Source: Bordetella genomosp. 5
GTDB taxonomy: Bacteria; Pseudomonadota; Gammaproteobacteria; Burkholderiales; Burkholderiaceae_B
Assembly (NCBI RefSeq): GCF_002261475.1
Contig: NZ_NEVN01000004.1
Coordinates: 186,001-250,000, forward strand
Direction: 5' to 3'
Length of the DNA stretch: 64,000 nt
Part shown: piece after piece, positions 17,372-26,676 of the stretch
Numbering within the stretch: the stretch's first letter is position 1
How the letters are laid out: every line of letters starts with the position of its first letter
Translations under genes and position numbers: made by a program
Notes under the pieces: model-generated
What the model saw: only the letters and a program-made list of their open reading frames with translations
The model's database searches: none
What the model was told of the DNA's origin: nothing

Positions 17372-18100
17372 ATGCTGGCTGCCGACGGATTGTTGCGTAT
17401 TGGTCTGCTCGAGGACGACGAAGACTTTCGCGAAGAGTTGGCCCTGGGGCTGGGTGGCTATGGGTTCAACGTGGTGTTCGATTGCGCCGACGCCGCCTCG
17501 TTTTACCGCAATCTCCAGTCGCAGCCCTGCGACATCGTCATTCTCGATGCCAACGTGCCGGGCGAAGACGGCTTCTCCGTCGCCACGCGCCTGCGCGCGC
17601 TCAGCCCCATGGGCATCGTGATGCTGACCGGCCGCGGCGCGCTCGAAGACCGCGTCCGCGGGCTCGAGGGCGGCGCCGACGTCTACCTGACCAAGCCGGT
17701 CGACCTGCTCGAACTCAGCTCCGTGATCCGCAGCCTGGCGCGCCGCATGCGCCTCGCGCGTGGCGGGGCCGCCACAACGGGTCAGACCATGGTCGAAGCG
17801 GGCCGCCCGTCGGCGCAATGGTCTTTGCAGGAAGGCGGTTGGGTGCTGGTCGGCCCGGAGGGCGTTTCGCTGCACCTCAACGCCCAGGAACGCATCTTTC
17901 TCATGACGCTGCTCGACAGCGCGGGCAAGGCCGTGACCCGCCAGGTATTGGCCGAGATCATCCAGCCCGATAACCCCGATGATTTCGAACCGCGCCGCGT
18001 CGACGTGATGGTGAGCCGCCTACGTGCCAAGGCGCAATCGGCCGGCTTCAAACTGCCGGTGTTGTCGGTGCGCGGCCAGGGTTACGTCTTCGCGGCGTAA
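17372..18100 (+). CDS. OmpR/PhoB-type response regulator
   Basis: 242 aa. The receiver domain (about 8-122) has the acidic pair EDDED at 14-18, phosphoacceptor Asp59 in VILDANVPGEDG, Thr86 in MLTGRG and Lys108 in LTKPVD. The C-terminal winged helix (about 145-240) ends with RRVDVMVSRLRAKA and VRGQGYVFAA, typical of the OmpR/PhoB DNA-binding domain. A good AGGGGAAGG ribosome site precedes the ATG. It converges on the hybrid kinase gene 77 bases away; the two are probably a two-component pair although transcribed from separate promoters. Confidence 0.92.
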   Translation: MLAADGLLRIGLLEDDEDFREELALGLGGYGFNVVFDCADAASFYRNLQSQPCDIVILDANVPGEDGFSVATRLRALSPMGIVMLTGRGALEDRVRGLEGGADVYLTKPVDLLELSSVIRSLARRMRLARGGAATTGQTMVEAGRPSAQWSLQEGGWVLVGPEGVSLHLNAQERIFLMTLLDSAGKAVTRQVLAEIIQPDNPDDFEPRRVDVMVSRLRAKAQSAGFKLPVLSVRGQGYVFAA

Positions 18101-18123
18101 GCCCACGGGCCCGCGGCCAAAAA

Positions 18124-18152
18124 AAGGCGGCGCTGCGGCGCCGCCTTTTTCT
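18124..18152. terminator. Bidirectional terminator between regulator and kinase genes
   Basis: AAGGCGGCGC (18124-18133), loop TGCG and GCGCCGCCTT (18138-18147) form a perfect 10-bp stem. It is flanked by A-rich sequence on the left and TTTCTTT on the right, serving both convergent genes. Confidence 0.88.
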
Positions 18153-18177: not shown

Positions 18178-20967
18178 TCAACTGCCGCGCCCTTGCGGTG
18201 TCGGCAGGGCGATGACGAACCGCGCGCCCTGGCCCGGTTGGGTCTGGACGGTGAGCGAGCCGCCCTGGTTGCTGCACAGCTGGCGCGCCAGATGCAGGCC
18301 CAGGCCGGTGCCCGGGGTTTCGCGATGCGCGGCCCGGCGGAAGTGCGGTTCGAAGATGCGTTCGGCCTCGGATTCTTCGATGCCGGGGCCCTGGTCCGTG
18401 ACGGCGAGCCAGGCGAGCGCGCCGTGAGCGCCGCTGGACAGACCCGCATCGATCAGAATGGGCTTGTCCGCCGGCGAATACTTGATCGCGTTCTGGATCA
18501 GGTTGCGCAGCACCAGGCCCGTGAGCAGGGGGTCGCACAGCACCGGCACCTGTGCTTCCGTGTTGACCACCAGCAGATGGGCCGTGTCCGGCTGAATGCT
18601 GGCCGCGGTATCGCGCACGATGTCGCCCAGATCGCAGCTCTCGGGGCGCGGCGTGAGCGCCTGGTCGTGCTGGCGTTGCGGGCTGAGCACCTGGTCGAGC
18701 ATGTCGATCATGCGCGTGACGTTGCGCCGGATGCGGGCGAGCCGGGTGTCGACGTCCTGGCCGCTGCCGGCCAGGATGGTTTCGAGCGACTGCGCCGCGG
18801 CGCTGATCGTGGCCGCCGGCGTGCGGAGCTCGTGCGACAGCAGCGAGTGCATCTGGCGCTGTGCCTGCAACGCACCGGCCAGCTCGGACAGACGTTGATC
18901 GGCTTGTTCCTGACGCTTGCGCAGCACGCCGCTCGCCGGCACGGGCCAGGCGGGGCTGGGGTTCGCGACGGCCGCGGCAGGGGCGGCGCCGGCTTGCGCG
19001 ATCGCGGCCTCGGCCGCCGGTGCGTCGGCGTTGTGAACCACAGGCTCGTCGGTGGGGGGCTCGGTGAGGTCCAGCACACCAGCATCGAGCGTGTCGGGCT
19101 CGGCTTCGAGCACGACAAAACCCAGCGAACTCAGCAGCTCGCGGATGGCCTGATCGGGCGCGTGCTGCGCATAGGCGGGAACGCCCAGCGTGCGCGCCGT
19201 CTGCGCGACCGTGGCGGCGAGGTGGCGGTTGCCGGGACTGCCCGCCAGGCTGTGCACGAAGCCGCCGCCGATCTTCAGGTAGGCCAGCGGCAACTGATGC
19301 AGACGCTCGAGCGCGGCGAACTGCTCCGACAGTCGGCGTACGCTGACGCGCGCGCCGGCCGCCGTGGCGATGTCGCACAGCGCCTGCACGCCCTCGAAAT
19401 AATCGACCAGTCCATGGGCGTCGATCTCGAGCACCAACCTGCGCGCCAGCGGCGGACGGTCTTCGAGGAGGCGGCGCAGGCGCTGACGGAACGAAGGTTG
19501 TTCCAGCGACGCGGGGGCGAGCTGCACGGCCAGGTCGCCGGTCGTGCCCACTTGCTGGTCGAGCGCCAGGCGCACGGCCTGGATGTCGCAGTCGGCGGCC
19601 AGACCCAGCCGGCTGGCGGGCGGCATGAACTGCGACGCATGGATGGGTTCGGGCGTGCCGGGATCGCGCAGCCAGAGCGTCGCCTTGTGATGCAGCACGG
19701 TGCCCGCGGCATCCCGCCGCGCTTCGCGCCGCAGGAAAAACCGGTGTTCTTCGAGTGCCCGCACCAGGATGTCCTGCCAGCTGTACTCGCCGTCGACCCG
19801 GGTCTCGTTGCGGTCATCGGCGTGCTGCAGGTCATCGCTGTTGGAGATCTCGGCGCGCATCAGCGCGTGGTCGAGACGGGCCAGCACCGTGCCGACCTGC
19901 TCGTGGGAACGATAGGCCGTGAGGGCGAGTGCCCAGCGGCACCATTGGCCATTCTTGAGCGGCAGACGGCGCAGGCGCAGCTCGCGCCGCATATGCTCGG
20001 CCAGCTCGTTGGCCGTACGCGTGCTGCTCGCCGGGAGCAGGGCGGCGAAGTCCGATCCATTGATCCGGGCGAGCAGGGTGCCGACGCCGCCGTGGCTCGT
20101 GAGTGTCTGGCTCAGATGCGTGGCGGTGAGGCGCAGCCATTGATCGGTCGCCTCGTGGTGCATGTGGCGATTGATCTCCGCCATGTCGCGTTGACGGAAG
20201 ATGAGCAGGTGGCCCGCGGGCTCGCCCTGACCCGGCGCGCGCAGCGCATTGCGGAAGGCATCGAAGAACACCCGACGATTCATCAATCGCGTGACGGGGT
20301 CGTGGCGCGCCTCGCTTTCGAGCGCGGCGATGCGTTCGTCGCGCTCGCCGAGCTGGCGGCGCTGGCGCTCCAGCCCTTCGTCGATCGCGGCGTAGACCGG
20401 GGCGAGCAGCGTGCGCTCGCTCGCACTGCCATCCGGAAGCTGGCCGGGCTCGCCGGCACGCGCATGATCCGCGAGCCTGACCAGCGGACCCGTCTGCCAA
20501 CGGCCCAGCGCGGCGCGCAGATTGCGCAGCATCCAGGCCGCGGCCCCGAGGCACAGCAAGAGCAGCAGGCCGGCGCTCAGCCACAGGGAAGCGGGGAGCG
20601 CGACGGGAAGCCCGCCGACGGCGATCTCGCCTCGCTCCGTGCCGTCGGTGGCGCGATACGGTTGGCGCGTCAGGGTGTGCGCCGCCGATGCGGGCGCGGA
20701 CGGCAGCGTCAGCGGTTCACCCGCGAGCGGATGGACGGTGACCACCAAGCCGGCGGGCGGCGCCGGCAGCCGGTCGCGCAAAGCTTGGGGTGCGCCGTTG
20801 GCGTCCGCGAGCACGGCGGCATACGCCCGGGCGGTGAGCTGGGCGGTCTCTTGCTGATGAGTCTGTGCGATACGCCAACTGGTCCAGGCCTGTAGTGCCT
20901 GCGCGCCGAGCAGGAGAACGATCGACGGCGTGAGAACGGCCCATACGAAACGATGTGGCAAGGTCAT
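18178..20967 (-). CDS. Histidine kinase with LapD-like degenerate GGDEF-EAL input
   Basis: 929 aa. Two membrane segments (about 8-27 and 126-147) flank a short periplasmic part. Residues 222-385 are a GGDEF-fold domain with RINGSDFAAL instead of GGDEF. Residues 395-625 are an EAL-fold domain without the EAL triad (HKATLWLRD). Both closely resemble the LapD of this window: IFRQRDMAEINRHM versus IFRQRDLSDLNRHL, CRWALALTAY versus CRWALALADY, LAYLKIGGGFVHSL versus LAYVKLGGGFVGGM. An Ala/Pro linker (640-680) leads to HisKA with His712 in SHELRTP and an HATPase with N-box RNLIQNAIKYSP, DQGPGIEES and GTGLGLHLARQL. It is predicted to be an active kinase whose input module may bind c-di-GMP. The periplasmic part lacks LapD's Gly-Trp LapG-binding motif. 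Confidence 0.9.
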   Translation of the reverse strand: MTLPHRFVWAVLTPSIVLLLGAQALQAWTSWRIAQTHQQETAQLTARAYAAVLADANGAPQALRDRLPAPPAGLVVTVHPLAGEPLTLPSAPASAAHTLTRQPYRATDGTERGEIAVGGLPVALPASLWLSAGLLLLLCLGAAAWMLRNLRAALGRWQTGPLVRLADHARAGEPGQLPDGSASERTLLAPVYAAIDEGLERQRRQLGERDERIAALESEARHDPVTRLMNRRVFFDAFRNALRAPGQGEPAGHLLIFRQRDMAEINRHMHHEATDQWLRLTATHLSQTLTSHGGVGTLLARINGSDFAALLPASSTRTANELAEHMRRELRLRRLPLKNGQWCRWALALTAYRSHEQVGTVLARLDHALMRAEISNSDDLQHADDRNETRVDGEYSWQDILVRALEEHRFFLRREARRDAAGTVLHHKATLWLRDPGTPEPIHASQFMPPASRLGLAADCDIQAVRLALDQQVGTTGDLAVQLAPASLEQPSFRQRLRRLLEDRPPLARRLVLEIDAHGLVDYFEGVQALCDIATAAGARVSVRRLSEQFAALERLHQLPLAYLKIGGGFVHSLAGSPGNRHLAATVAQTARTLGVPAYAQHAPDQAIRELLSSLGFVVLEAEPDTLDAGVLDLTEPPTDEPVVHNADAPAAEAAIAQAGAAPAAAVANPSPAWPVPASGVLRKRQEQADQRLSELAGALQAQRQMHSLLSHELRTPAATISAAAQSLETILAGSGQDVDTRLARIRRNVTRMIDMLDQVLSPQRQHDQALTPRPESCDLGDIVRDTAASIQPDTAHLLVVNTEAQVPVLCDPLLTGLVLRNLIQNAIKYSPADKPILIDAGLSSGAHGALAWLAVTDQGPGIEESEAERIFEPHFRRAAHRETPGTGLGLHLARQLCSNQGGSLTVQTQPGQGARFVIALPTPQGRGS

Positions 20968-21209: not shown

Positions 21210-22583
21210 GTGGGATTGGATGACCTGGTGGGTCAGAGTCTGCTACCGGGATTGGCGCTGGCCGCCACATTGGTTTTCTTTATATATAGAGAGTATCGGT
21301 TGCGTCGCCGTCTGGCGCGCGACTCGCTCACGGGTGCACTCACGCCCGATTCACTGCGCCTCAAGGTCGAGCGCAGCATGCGGCGCACCGGCGCCGTGGC
21401 CACCCAGGATACCGCGCTGCTGGTCAAGCTGATCCAGCATCCCTCCCTGTCTGCCATGTTGAATATGGCCGACAACAAGACCCTGCTCGCCATGGTCGCG
21501 CAGCGCCTGCATGAGCTGTCCGACGATTTTCTGGTCGCGCGTTATTCCACCGATTCGTTCATGGTCTGGGCGCCCGATGTCGAAGGCTGGCACATCGCCG
21601 AGCTCGCCCCACATATTCTCGAGCAGCTCTCGTGGCCCTACGAGCTGCGAGGCCAGCCGCTGATCGTGGGGTTCCGCCTGTCGGCCGCGATGTATCCGGC
21701 GCACGGCGCGGATTTCGACGAACTCGAGCGCAGCCTGCACATCGCCATGCTGCAGCTCGACGACGGCGGCCCCGCCTGGAATATCTTCGAGCCCGACATG
21801 CTCGAGCGCCAGCGACATTTCCAGGGGCTGGAGCACGACCTGCGCGTGGCGCTCGCTTCGTCGTCGATGGATCAGTTCGAGGTGCATTACCAGCCCGTCT
21901 GCGACACGGATTCCGGCGTGATCCAGGGATGCGAGGCGCTGCTGCGCTGGCATCACCCGGTGCACGGCGATGTGTCGCCGCTGGTGGTCATCGAGCTGGC
22001 CGAGCGCACCGGTCTGATCGTGGGGCTGGGCGCCTGGGTGCTCGAGACGGCCTGCGCGCGCGCGGTCACCTGGCCCGCGTCGTGGAGCCTGCATGTAAAC
22101 GTGTCGGTGCGGCAGATGTACGCCGACGAGCTGCCGCTGCAGGTGGCGCACGTGCTGGCCAACAGCCGTCTGGCGCCGCACCGTCTGGTGCTCGAAATCA
22201 CCGAGTCGGTGTTCATTCTGCAGTACGAGCGCCATGTGGCCACGCTCAATTCCCTGCGCGCACGCGGCGTGCAGGTGGCGCTCGATGATTTCGGCGCGGG
22301 CTATTCCAGCCTCACTCACCTGCGCCGCCTGCCGATCGATTGGGTCAAGCTCGATCGCGGTTTCGTGGCGGAAATCGAATCCGATGTGGTGAGCCAGGAG
22401 CTTGTGTCGGCGCTCATGGGCATGTGCCGCGCGCTGGGCCTGATGGTGGTGGCCGAGGGCGTGGAAACCGAGGCGCAGCGCGACATTCTGAGCCGCATGG
22501 GCTGCCGTTACATGCAGGGATTTCTGCTGGGCCGGCCGGTCCCGGCGCATCAGATACGGGTTTTGGCGGCGTCGGTGTCATAA
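21210..22583 (+). CDS. Membrane-anchored EAL-domain c-di-GMP phosphodiesterase
   Basis: 457 aa, GTG start preceded by AAGGGGG. One N-terminal membrane helix (11-26) leads to a degenerate GGDEF-like domain (about 38-195, [11 protein letters not shown] at the active-site position). The EAL domain (208-452) keeps the catalytic set: Glu242 in GCEALLRW, Asn297 in HVNVS, Glu329 in LEITES, Asp359-Asp360 in DDFGAGYSS, Lys380 in KLDRGF and Glu416 in VAEGVET. It should hydrolyse c-di-GMP. Placed between the LapD-like kinase and, three genes on, lapD, it may tune the local c-di-GMP signal that controls adhesin release. The cytoplasmic GGDEF-like domain may be a GTP sensor. Confidence 0.93.
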
Positions 22584-24648: not shown

Positions 24649-26676
24649 TCAGGCCGGCGCCGTCACGCCCGGGCCGCGCATCACATTGATCCCCAGATCC
24701 AGCAGCACCCGGCGCGTCTGCGCGTCGGGAACGTCCTCGGCGTAGACCTCGATGCCCAGCCCGCGCGCCGTCTCGAGCACCGAGGCGGTGAGCTGCTGGC
24801 TGCCCGGGCTTTGCGTCATTCCGCCCACGAACCCCCCGCCCAGCTTCACATAAGCGAGCGGCACGGTGTGCAGCTGCGCCACCGCGGCGAACTGCTGCGC
24901 CAAGCGTCGCAGGCCGACCCGGGCACCCGCTTCGGTTACCGTTGCGGCGAACGCCTGCACCGCTTCGGGCGCCTCGACCAGACCATGCGCATCCACTTCG
25001 ATGCACAGCCGCGCGGCCAGCGCGGGCTGCGCGTGCAGGATTTCGGCCAGGCGCGGCAGGAAGTGCAGGGTACGCAGCGACGGCAACGCGACGCGCACGG
25101 CGAGGTCGCCGCGATGCGCCTGGAGCCAGGCCAGCCCGAGCTCGAGCGCCTGCAGGTCGCAGTCGGCGACCAGACCCAGACGCACCGCCGGCGGGATGAA
25201 CAGCGTGGCATGCAGCGGCGGACGGCCGGCCTCGTCGAGCAGGGTCAGCGTCGCCTCGGCCCGCACCGGTTCGCCCTGCGCCGTCCGCAGCATGTCGGTG
25301 GCCAGCCCGAACCGACGCTCGGCCAGCGCGGCCGACAGGGTGCTCTGCCAGGCCAGCTTGCCCGCTTCGGACGGCCCTTGCGCGTCGCTGTCGCCCACGA
25401 CCACCACATGATCGTCGCCGGCGCTTTCGGCGCGCATGAGGCCGAAATCGAGGCGGCCCAACACGGCGCTCGCGCCGGTGCCCGGCGCGTAATCGGCCAG
25501 GGCCAGCGCCCAGCGGCACAGATGGCCTTCACCCACCGGGATGCGCGAGGCGTGCAGGTCGCTGCGCAGCTGTTCGGCGATCGACAGCGCCCGCGGCGCG
25601 GCACAGCCGGCCAGGAGCACGGCGAAATCCGAGCCGTTCAGCCGGCCCACCAGCGACGGCGCGGCATGCAGTTGTTCCAGTGATGCCAGGATGCGGTTGC
25701 TCACACCGCCCAGCCACTGATCGATGAACTCGCGGGGCAGGTGGCGATTGAGGTCGGACAGGTCGCGCTGACGGAAGATGAAGATATGGCCGCCGGACGC
25801 CGTTGCGCCGGAAGCCGCTGCGTCGAATGCCGCTGCGCCGGGTGTCGCTGCGCCGGGTGTCGCCGTGCCGAGCGCCGTCGAGTCACCGCGCCCGCTTTGC
25901 TCGAGAATGCGGCGCAGTTCGTTGAGGAAGTAGCGGCGGTTGGGCAGGCCGGTGACGGGATCCAGATTGACCTCGAGCTCGAGCGACTCGATCTTGGCGT
26001 TCTGCTCTTCCACGCTGGCCTGGATGCGCTCGCGCGTCTGGTTGAGCGCTTCGACCACGCCCGAGAGCTCGGGCACGCGCACCTGCATGGGCGTGGCGGC
26101 CGCGCCCTGGCCGATGCGGCGCACCTGGTCGCTGATCTCGCGCAGCAGCCGATTCTGAATCCAGCGCACGAGCCAGAAGGCGAAGAGCGCCCACAGCGCG
26201 CCGGCGCCCGCGACGAGCGCGATCATGCGCAGGCTGCCGTGCCATAGGGATTGCCATGCGTAGGCGTCGTTGGCGAGCAGCGTCACGGTGCCGATCTGCT
26301 TCCAGCCGTCGCTCACCGCGTGGGTGGCGGGTTCGGATTGCAGCGGCGCCAGCGACTTGAACCAGCCCGGCACGCCGTCCGCCGCGGCGGGCGCCTGCCG
26401 TTCGACGATCGTCTTGCCGTCCGGGTCCGCCAGCCGCACCTGCGAGAAATGGCCGCCGTCGAACAGCGCGGACACCAGCAGCTCCTGCACGACAGGATCG
26501 TTGTTGGCAGGCTGTGACAACGACAACGCCAGGGACACGGCCGCGTCGGTGCTCTGCACCTGGAGTTGACCGGAGAGATACTGCCGCGCCGCGTTGATGT
26601 TGAGCGCGAGCGCGCCGAGCAGGATCACCGCGATGGCGAGGGTCACGCTCAGCAGTAATTGTCGGAGTATGGACAT
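24649..26676 (-). CDS. lapD: LapD, c-di-GMP receptor controlling LapG
   Basis: 675 aa. Membrane helix 1 (about 5-27), a periplasmic domain, membrane helix 2 (about 150-171), HAMP (to about 225), degenerate GGDEF (RLNGSD at 345-350) and degenerate EAL (EATLTL at 474-479) in the LapD order. The periplasmic DGWKQIGTV puts a Trp at residue 125, the position that in Pseudomonas LapD contacts LapG. When c-di-GMP binds the EAL-like domain, LapD sequesters LapG and keeps the adhesin on the cell. lapG is 18 bases upstream on the same strand. A pentapeptide Ala/Thr/Pro repeat interrupts the GGDEF-like domain (267-295). Confidence 0.93.
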   Translation of the reverse strand: MSILRQLLLSVTLAIAVILLGALALNINAARQYLSGQLQVQSTDAAVSLALSLSQPANNDPVVQELLVSALFDGGHFSQVRLADPDGKTIVERQAPAAADGVPGWFKSLAPLQSEPATHAVSDGWKQIGTVTLLANDAYAWQSLWHGSLRMIALVAGAGALWALFAFWLVRWIQNRLLREISDQVRRIGQGAAATPMQVRVPELSGVVEALNQTRERIQASVEEQNAKIESLELEVNLDPVTGLPNRRYFLNELRRILEQSGRGDSTALGTATPGAATPGAAAFDAAASGATASGGHIFIFRQRDLSDLNRHLPREFIDQWLGGVSNRILASLEQLHAAPSLVGRLNGSDFAVLLAGCAAPRALSIAEQLRSDLHASRIPVGEGHLCRWALALADYAPGTGASAVLGRLDFGLMRAESAGDDHVVVVGDSDAQGPSEAGKLAWQSTLSAALAERRFGLATDMLRTAQGEPVRAEATLTLLDEAGRPPLHATLFIPPAVRLGLVADCDLQALELGLAWLQAHRGDLAVRVALPSLRTLHFLPRLAEILHAQPALAARLCIEVDAHGLVEAPEAVQAFAATVTEAGARVGLRRLAQQFAAVAQLHTVPLAYVKLGGGFVGGMTQSPGSQQLTASVLETARGLGIEVYAEDVPDAQTRRVLLDLGINVMRGPGVTAPA
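25798..25880 (-). repeat. 15-bp tandem repeats inside lapD
   Basis: Variants of GCCGCTGCGCCGGGT recur every 15 bases and encode GTATP, GAATP, GAAAF, DAAAS, GATAS in the LapD GGDEF-like domain. The period is in frame, so copy changes alter loop length without a frameshift. Confidence 0.8.

Follow-up and report, generated by a model that had tools for sequence, protein, structure and literature searches.

The 64,000-nucleotide stretch of Bordetella genomosp. 5 DNA analysed here (the window) contains an open reading frame, 18178-20967 (-), that encodes a 929-aa protein in which a LapD-like module is followed by a histidine kinase. An earlier note on this DNA had proposed that a lapD duplicate had exchanged its protease-sequestering role for a kinase output gated by c-di-GMP. 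The locus thus raises the question of what this protein is, how its two parts were joined, and which signal its kinase could read.

Layout and identity of the 929-aa protein

The GGDEF, EAL, HisKA and HATPase_c domains of the protein each exceed their curated Pfam cut-offs (Table 1). The open reading frame is real, and chance is excluded by full-length homologues in eight other Bordetella genomes. The canonical LapD of the window aligned with residues 127-620 (204/526 identical, 39%, E 4e-101), and residues 1-126 were left unaligned in the same comparison; the match to LapD, described earlier as running segment by segment, therefore starts only at the second membrane helix. Two membrane helices were predicted from hydropathy. 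The GGDEF motif reads NGSDF and the EAL site K-A-T, and both domains are thus degenerate, as had been noted. The HisKA and HATPase_c domains are intact, also as noted: His712 sits within LSHELRTP, and the H-, N-, G1- and G2-box motifs were found in 9/9 fused orthologues. The best NCBIfam model was LapD, with 181.7 bits for the 929-aa protein and 321.7 for the LapD of the window, both below the equivalog cut-off of 1020. Among solved structures, sequence and fold comparisons both gave GGDEF-EAL chains of LapD as the best relatives, with histidine kinase cores for the C-terminal part.

Table 1. Positions in the window of the 929-aa gene, its parts and its neighbours.
Feature	Position	Strand	Evidence
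Convergent OmpR-type response regulator, BB2108 position, probable phosphorylation partner	17372..18100	+	Pfam, gene order
Probable ddpA orthologue, LapD-like GGDEF/EAL and histidine kinase, 929 aa	18178..20967	-	Pfam, LapD alignment, gene order
Residues 1-181: TM1, periplasmic region, TM2, HAMP-like stretch	20425..20967	-	Hydropathy, Pfam, model; dN/dS 0.42-0.45 vs L038
Residues 182-221: predicted long helix where LapD has its S helix	20305..20424	-	Model; LapD S helix-GGDEF-EAL best structural matches
Degenerate GGDEF (NGSDF), residues 220-373	19849..20310	-	Pfam (59.3 bits), motif reading
Degenerate EAL, residues 401-618	19114..19767	-	Pfam (86.7 bits), alignment; dN/dS 0.086 vs L038
Gln601 codon, aligned with LapD Glu617	19165..19167	-	Alignment
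Linker, residues 628-678, predicted disordered	18934..19086	-	pLDDT mostly <50; dN/dS 0.96 (623-683) vs L038
HisKA, residues 703-765, His712	18673..18861	-	Pfam (29.5 bits), motifs
HATPase_c, residues 815-924	18196..18525	-	Pfam (80.3 bits), motifs
Divergent EAL phosphodiesterase, PdeB/BB2110 position	21210..22583	+	Pfam, gene order
Canonical window LapD, given for reference	24649..26676	-	Pfam, alignment

The neighbouring regulator carries Response_reg and Trans_reg_C domains, which confirms the convergent OmpR-type regulator reported before, and its phosphorylation site was read from the sequence as Asp59. Between the two convergent genes (18119-18150), an inverted repeat of 8 bases (18126-18133 / 18138-18145), bordered by an A run and a T run, looks like a two-way terminator; it was not listed by the promoter and terminator scanner, which returned two terminator-like sites (2.4 in shuffles) and one promoter-like site at 21028-21000 (0.3 in shuffles). 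Elsewhere in the window, an 8742-aa open frame (27468-53696, -) lies next to LapG and LapD, where B. bronchiseptica has the adhesin BrtA.

The order regulator / 929-aa gene / EAL phosphodiesterase is that given for B. bronchiseptica, BB2108 / BB2109 (DdpA) / BB2110 (PdeB), in the accessible part of PMC12004968. In the available sections of a 2025 review, DdpA is described as a membrane protein with degenerate GGDEF and EAL domains and a predicted histidine kinase domain; in B. bronchiseptica it is required for the activity of the cyclase BdcA, to which its phenotypes are attributed. A deletion in B. pertussis reportedly changes virulence factor expression and intracellular survival. The same sections of the review describe B. 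pertussis as being without LapD and number its pdeB and ddpA genes BP1460 and BP1092, from which we infer that they lie apart. The available portion of a phosphoproteomics paper (PMC8076611) lists BP1092 among response regulators, in conflict with the review. From gene order and architecture, the 929-aa protein is very probably the Bordetella DdpA and a putative orthologue of BB2109: in the excerpts describing it, DdpA (BB2109/BP1092) is like the window protein in genus, architecture and neighbours on both sides, and differs in coming from other species. The domain order was previously thought to be undescribed, and an existing description with a function had been named beforehand as counting against the proposal; DdpA is in print with the same architecture and a function. 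The observation was right, the architecture was already published, and the mode of origin of the fusion looks new.

When the contigs of named genomes were searched with the window protein, 13 loci were obtained. L058 of Bordetella genomosp. 1 is a full-length and close relative (76% identity in the best segment), with the same layout and identities in genome G087, and the 12 others match only residues 661-928. The copy carried by genome G084 (locus L039) is 53-56% identical to the window protein. In this genome, the fusion was the sole match to the LapD of the window at E 1e-40, no EAL457-like, aroC or M48 gene adjoins it, and at least 150 transposase matches were scored (about 130 in G083). 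IS481 is abundant in B. pertussis. Since G084 has no separate LapD at this threshold, many transposase matches, and a fusion lying away from the EAL gene and aroC, it is probably B. pertussis, and L039 its DdpA. Transposase matches at G084:C1:2502140 and 2511451 flank the fused gene (2503300-2506056), which is consistent with a rearrangement separating it from the EAL gene.

Fused and split loci in the family

Orthologues of the regulator were sought in 268 genomes of the family at E 1e-75 and found in 61, namely 9 of the 15 genomes of Bordetella (g1, the genus of the window), 43 of genus g2, 6 of g9, 1 of g26 and 2 of g38. Nine of the 61 genomes, including that of the window, carry a fusion, and 51 carry a split locus; the remaining genome, G034 (57% complete), was undeterminable, the kinase core being absent from the contig examined. 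In G014 and G034 the regulator is located on another contig. All nine fusions were found in Bordetella only. Six Bordetella genomes gave no regulator at E 1e-75: G079, G080 and G089 carry canonical LapDs, and G086, G090 (73% complete) and G091 (77% complete) gave no match in the fusion, regulator or LapD searches. When 399 genomes drawn evenly from the order were searched at E 1e-90, with two candidates scored per genome, matches were obtained in five genomes, all of the same family, and both halves were spanned in the window genome alone.

In the split loci, a LapD-like gene is followed by a separate gene for a membrane kinase with 2-6 predicted membrane helices (nine examined). The stop region of the LapD-like gene reads TTGA in 42/51 loci, and the open frame of the kinase starts within this overlap in 30 of the 42; these counts come mostly from near relatives of one genus and represent few independent observations. 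Three of four scanned LapD-like proteins matched LapD_MoxY_N (36, 41.5 and 125.9 bits), and the fourth, from which the periplasmic domain is missing, gave no match. The split pairs of g2, g9, g26 and g38 thus resemble the fusion in syntenic place, regulator, and homologous GGDEF-EAL and kinase core, but they consist of two genes and their kinase has its own membrane part.

Two genera show other states of the LapD-like gene. In g9 (L053 and L054), the paralogues are 533 and 525 aa long and have lost most of the periplasmic domain, and they still precede the kinase gene. In g38 (L056 and L113), a sole LapD-like gene was found, in one place each in G215 and G216; it keeps the GWxQ motif, precedes the kinase gene and, in L056 (9132-11081), also adjoins LapG. 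This layout is a possible ancestral arrangement with two outputs, and the association with the kinase may accordingly predate the duplication.

Additional LapD-like genes were observed in three Bordetella genomes. G080 and G089, both fusion-free, have a second LapD (G080:C7:700997-702928 and G089:C17:47645-49660) that is 71-74% identical to the LapD of the window, the other LapD there being 51% identical. In G082, a second LapD-like frame of 727 aa (L043, 14537-15616, -) matches LapD from residue 288 only, and no LapG match was found within the 20 kb examined.

The GGDEF-EAL parts of the nine fusions formed one clade (100/100), as did their kinase cores (100/99), in trees that included 18 of the 51 split rows. 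A second tree of 33 rows, with 15 of the 51 split rows and long rows excluded, placed the fused rows with the split rows of g2 (96/91), and a topology joining the fusions to the LapDs of the window and of L038 was rejected (p-AU 1.1e-7). A recent copying of the lapD gene of the window is ruled out by this tree. The fused proteins lie with the LapD-like paralogue of g2 and away from the LapDs of the window and L038, so that the "lapD duplicate" was correct as to descent from the LapD lineage and incorrect as to copying from the lapD of its own genus. When the distant P. fluorescens LapD was included, the deeper branches, and thus the order of duplication and speciation, were weakly ordered.

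Nine fusions confined to one genus, set against 51 split loci, point to a single fusion that removed the membrane part of the kinase. The fusion would have arisen once, in an ancestor of part of Bordetella, by in-frame joining of the LapD-like gene with the kinase gene directly downstream; the LapD-like parent would already have been without LapG binding, and the multi-helix membrane part of the kinase would have been lost on joining.

Binding residues and selection

GWxQ is the LapG anchor of LapD in the accessible parts of PMC3032553 and PMC4359373. The motif is present in the LapD of the window and missing from the 929-aa protein; across the sets it was found in 10/10 LapDs, 2/51 split copies (both of g38, the L056 gene being counted in both sets) and 0/9 fusions, which bears out the reported absence of the LapG-binding Gly-Trp. 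LapD_MoxY_N gave no match in the 929-aa protein at E 1 and none in the nine fused proteins at E 0.01. Because 49/51 split copies are without GWxQ, the motif was lost before the fusion. The earlier account, in which the duplicate lost its protease role and gained a kinase, was right on both changes and needs correction on their course, since the loss preceded the joining. The fusion has a LapD-like membrane topology with two predicted helices, as would be expected if it still sequestered LapG or another periplasmic protease in the manner of LapD. This is highly improbable given that both the motif and the domain are missing; moreover, the periplasmic part is 50% identical between the window and L038, against 84% for the N-terminal part of LapD, and in six of the nine fused genomes the fusion is the only match to the LapD of the window at E 1e-40.

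Selection was estimated as dN/dS by the Nei-Gojobori method in three fused pairs (window/L038, L040/L043 and L041/L045). Between the window and L038, values for the fusion were 0.42 (periplasmic), 0.45 (TM2 to S helix), 0.13 (GGDEF), 0.09 (EAL), 0.96 (linker) and 0.10 (kinase), and those for the LapDs of the same genomes were 0.17 for the N-terminal part, then 0.36, 0.23 and, for the EAL domain, 0.22. In this comparison, LapD is thus best kept in its periplasmic part, and the fusion in GGDEF, EAL and kinase, not in its N-terminal 215 residues. The other two pairs gave 0.03-0.14 for GGDEF, EAL and kinase, and a decay of dead domains is ruled out by the GGDEF and EAL values, which lie at 0.03-0.14 in all three pairs. 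The evidence for a relaxed periplasmic part comes from the window/L038 pair. For L040/L043 the periplasmic value was 0.30; for L041/L045 it was 0.075, with synonymous sites close to saturation and a higher identity in the periplasmic part (87.5%) than in the EAL part (83.8%). The linker, with values of 0.39 and 0.33 in these two pairs, is 34-65 residues long in the fusions, variable and mostly of low complexity. In the AlphaFold model (44 rows; mean pLDDT 83.4, pTM 0.44), most of residues 628-678 fall below pLDDT 50. This makes a rigid helical relay between EAL and kinase unlikely, and in this model the connection is likelier to be a tether.

The binding of free c-di-GMP by the EAL-like domain, as in LapD, could in principle gate the kinase. 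LapD chains covering S helix, GGDEF and EAL are the best structural match, purifying selection acts on the EAL domain, and the 929-aa protein retains the switch-loop Phe (F566), as do 6/9 fusions. No I-site RxxD was seen by eye ahead of NGSDF, at the spacing that we take to apply relative to a GGDEF-type motif. The position of LapD E617 aligns with Gln601; it is Glu in 10/10 LapDs, in 36/51 split copies (the others being 5 Asp, 7 Ala, 2 Val and 1 Thr) and in 1/9 fusions, L039, the orthologue from the probable B. pertussis genome. R450 of LapD is missing in all 70 rows, the ten canonical LapDs included, so that this residue does not discriminate and residue losses alone are no proof of lost c-di-GMP binding. 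In P. fluorescens LapD, E617A severely lowers c-di-GMP binding, according to the available portion of PMC3032545. Together with the loss of this Glu in 8/9 fusions, the window's included, and with the disordered linker between EAL and kinase, this weakens the gating by c-di-GMP that had been put forward and makes it a rather unlikely reading overall. A switch by free c-di-GMP may operate in L039-like orthologues; in the window protein it is less likely. The residue losses and the selection were established computationally, as were the gene order and the fused or split state of the loci.

A proposed docking module for the kinase and its probable regulator

We consider it probable that the protein is a DdpA orthologue that arose by one fusion and whose dead GGDEF-EAL module docks a cyclase and steers a tethered kinase towards the regulator, and we favour such a docking scaffold over a receptor gated by free c-di-GMP. 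The membrane-anchored, catalytically dead GGDEF-EAL module would most likely dock a Cache-type diguanylate cyclase; the state of the docked complex would be passed to the flexibly tethered histidine kinase dimer (His712), which would phosphorylate the convergent regulator at Asp59. In this scheme we infer that the kinase is active and hands its phosphate to the regulator, that docking occurs in this species, and that docking and kinase are coupled. Docking is proposed by likeness to the DdpA-BdcA and LapD-GcbC reports, which the review, in its available sections, compares with each other; in LapD-GcbC, the cyclase docks on an EAL helix of LapD (PMC6050961, accessible part). The genome of the window encodes five dCache-GGDEF proteins, four with a dCache domain above the cut-off and one below; dCache-GGDEF cyclases of this genome (G000) lie at C8:282605, C4:309256, C4:310991 and C11:159653. 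Against the favoured docking scaffold, the BdcA link comes from another species, as given in the review, the disordered linker obscures how EAL would be coupled to a kinase that could act independently, and BP1092 appears among response regulators in PMC8076611.

The review sections available explain the B. bronchiseptica phenotypes through BdcA activation, and the protein could accordingly be a cyclase scaffold only, with the kinase part as a passive remnant. We regard this as improbable, since the H, N, G1 and G2 motifs are intact in 9/9 fusions and the kinase dN/dS is 0.10, 0.08 and 0.04 in the three pairs; all 60 kinase genomes have the regulator, which says little because they were chosen that way. 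The kinase boxes in 9/9 fusions and the adjoining convergent regulator agree with the gain of a kinase output beside its probable regulator, as first suggested.

Compared with known systems, the window protein shares with LapD the S helix, the degenerate GGDEF and EAL domains, two membrane helices and 39% identity, but it is without the periplasmic domain match, GWxQ and E617, and has an added kinase. The probable B. pertussis DdpA, L039, differs from it in keeping the E617 Glu. The LapD-GcbC system of P. fluorescens likewise has a dead GGDEF-EAL receptor, with an EAL helix serving as docking site for the Cache-type cyclase, but it has no kinase and its output is LapG sequestration. SgmT of Myxococcus xanthus is also a histidine kinase with a GGDEF domain and a partner regulator; it differs, by its abstract, in that the GGDEF domain is C-terminal, with roles in c-di-GMP binding and in spatial sequestration of the kinase, and no EAL is named there.

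Tentatively, and with less assurance than for the reading above, the output may have changed in steps, from LapG plus a kinase gene (g38), through a LapG-free copy with the kinase in trans (g2, g9 and g26), to a single polypeptide in Bordetella that would read a docked cyclase rather than free c-di-GMP and act on the regulator. No paper on the origin of the fusion or on the split LapD-like/kinase pair was found in the literature accessible, in which subscription coverage is thin; as far as that literature reaches, three points add to what is known of DdpA, namely its stepwise fusion, the order in which features were lost, and the missing E617.

DdpA has so far been treated mainly as a BdcA scaffold, in the partial texts consulted, and the history of the fusion suggests that its long-standing partner is the kinase-regulator pair. 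In the unfused genomes, the LapD-like protein and the kinase would be predicted to work together, and orthologues that naturally keep or lack the c-di-GMP Glu offer material for a direct comparison of binding.
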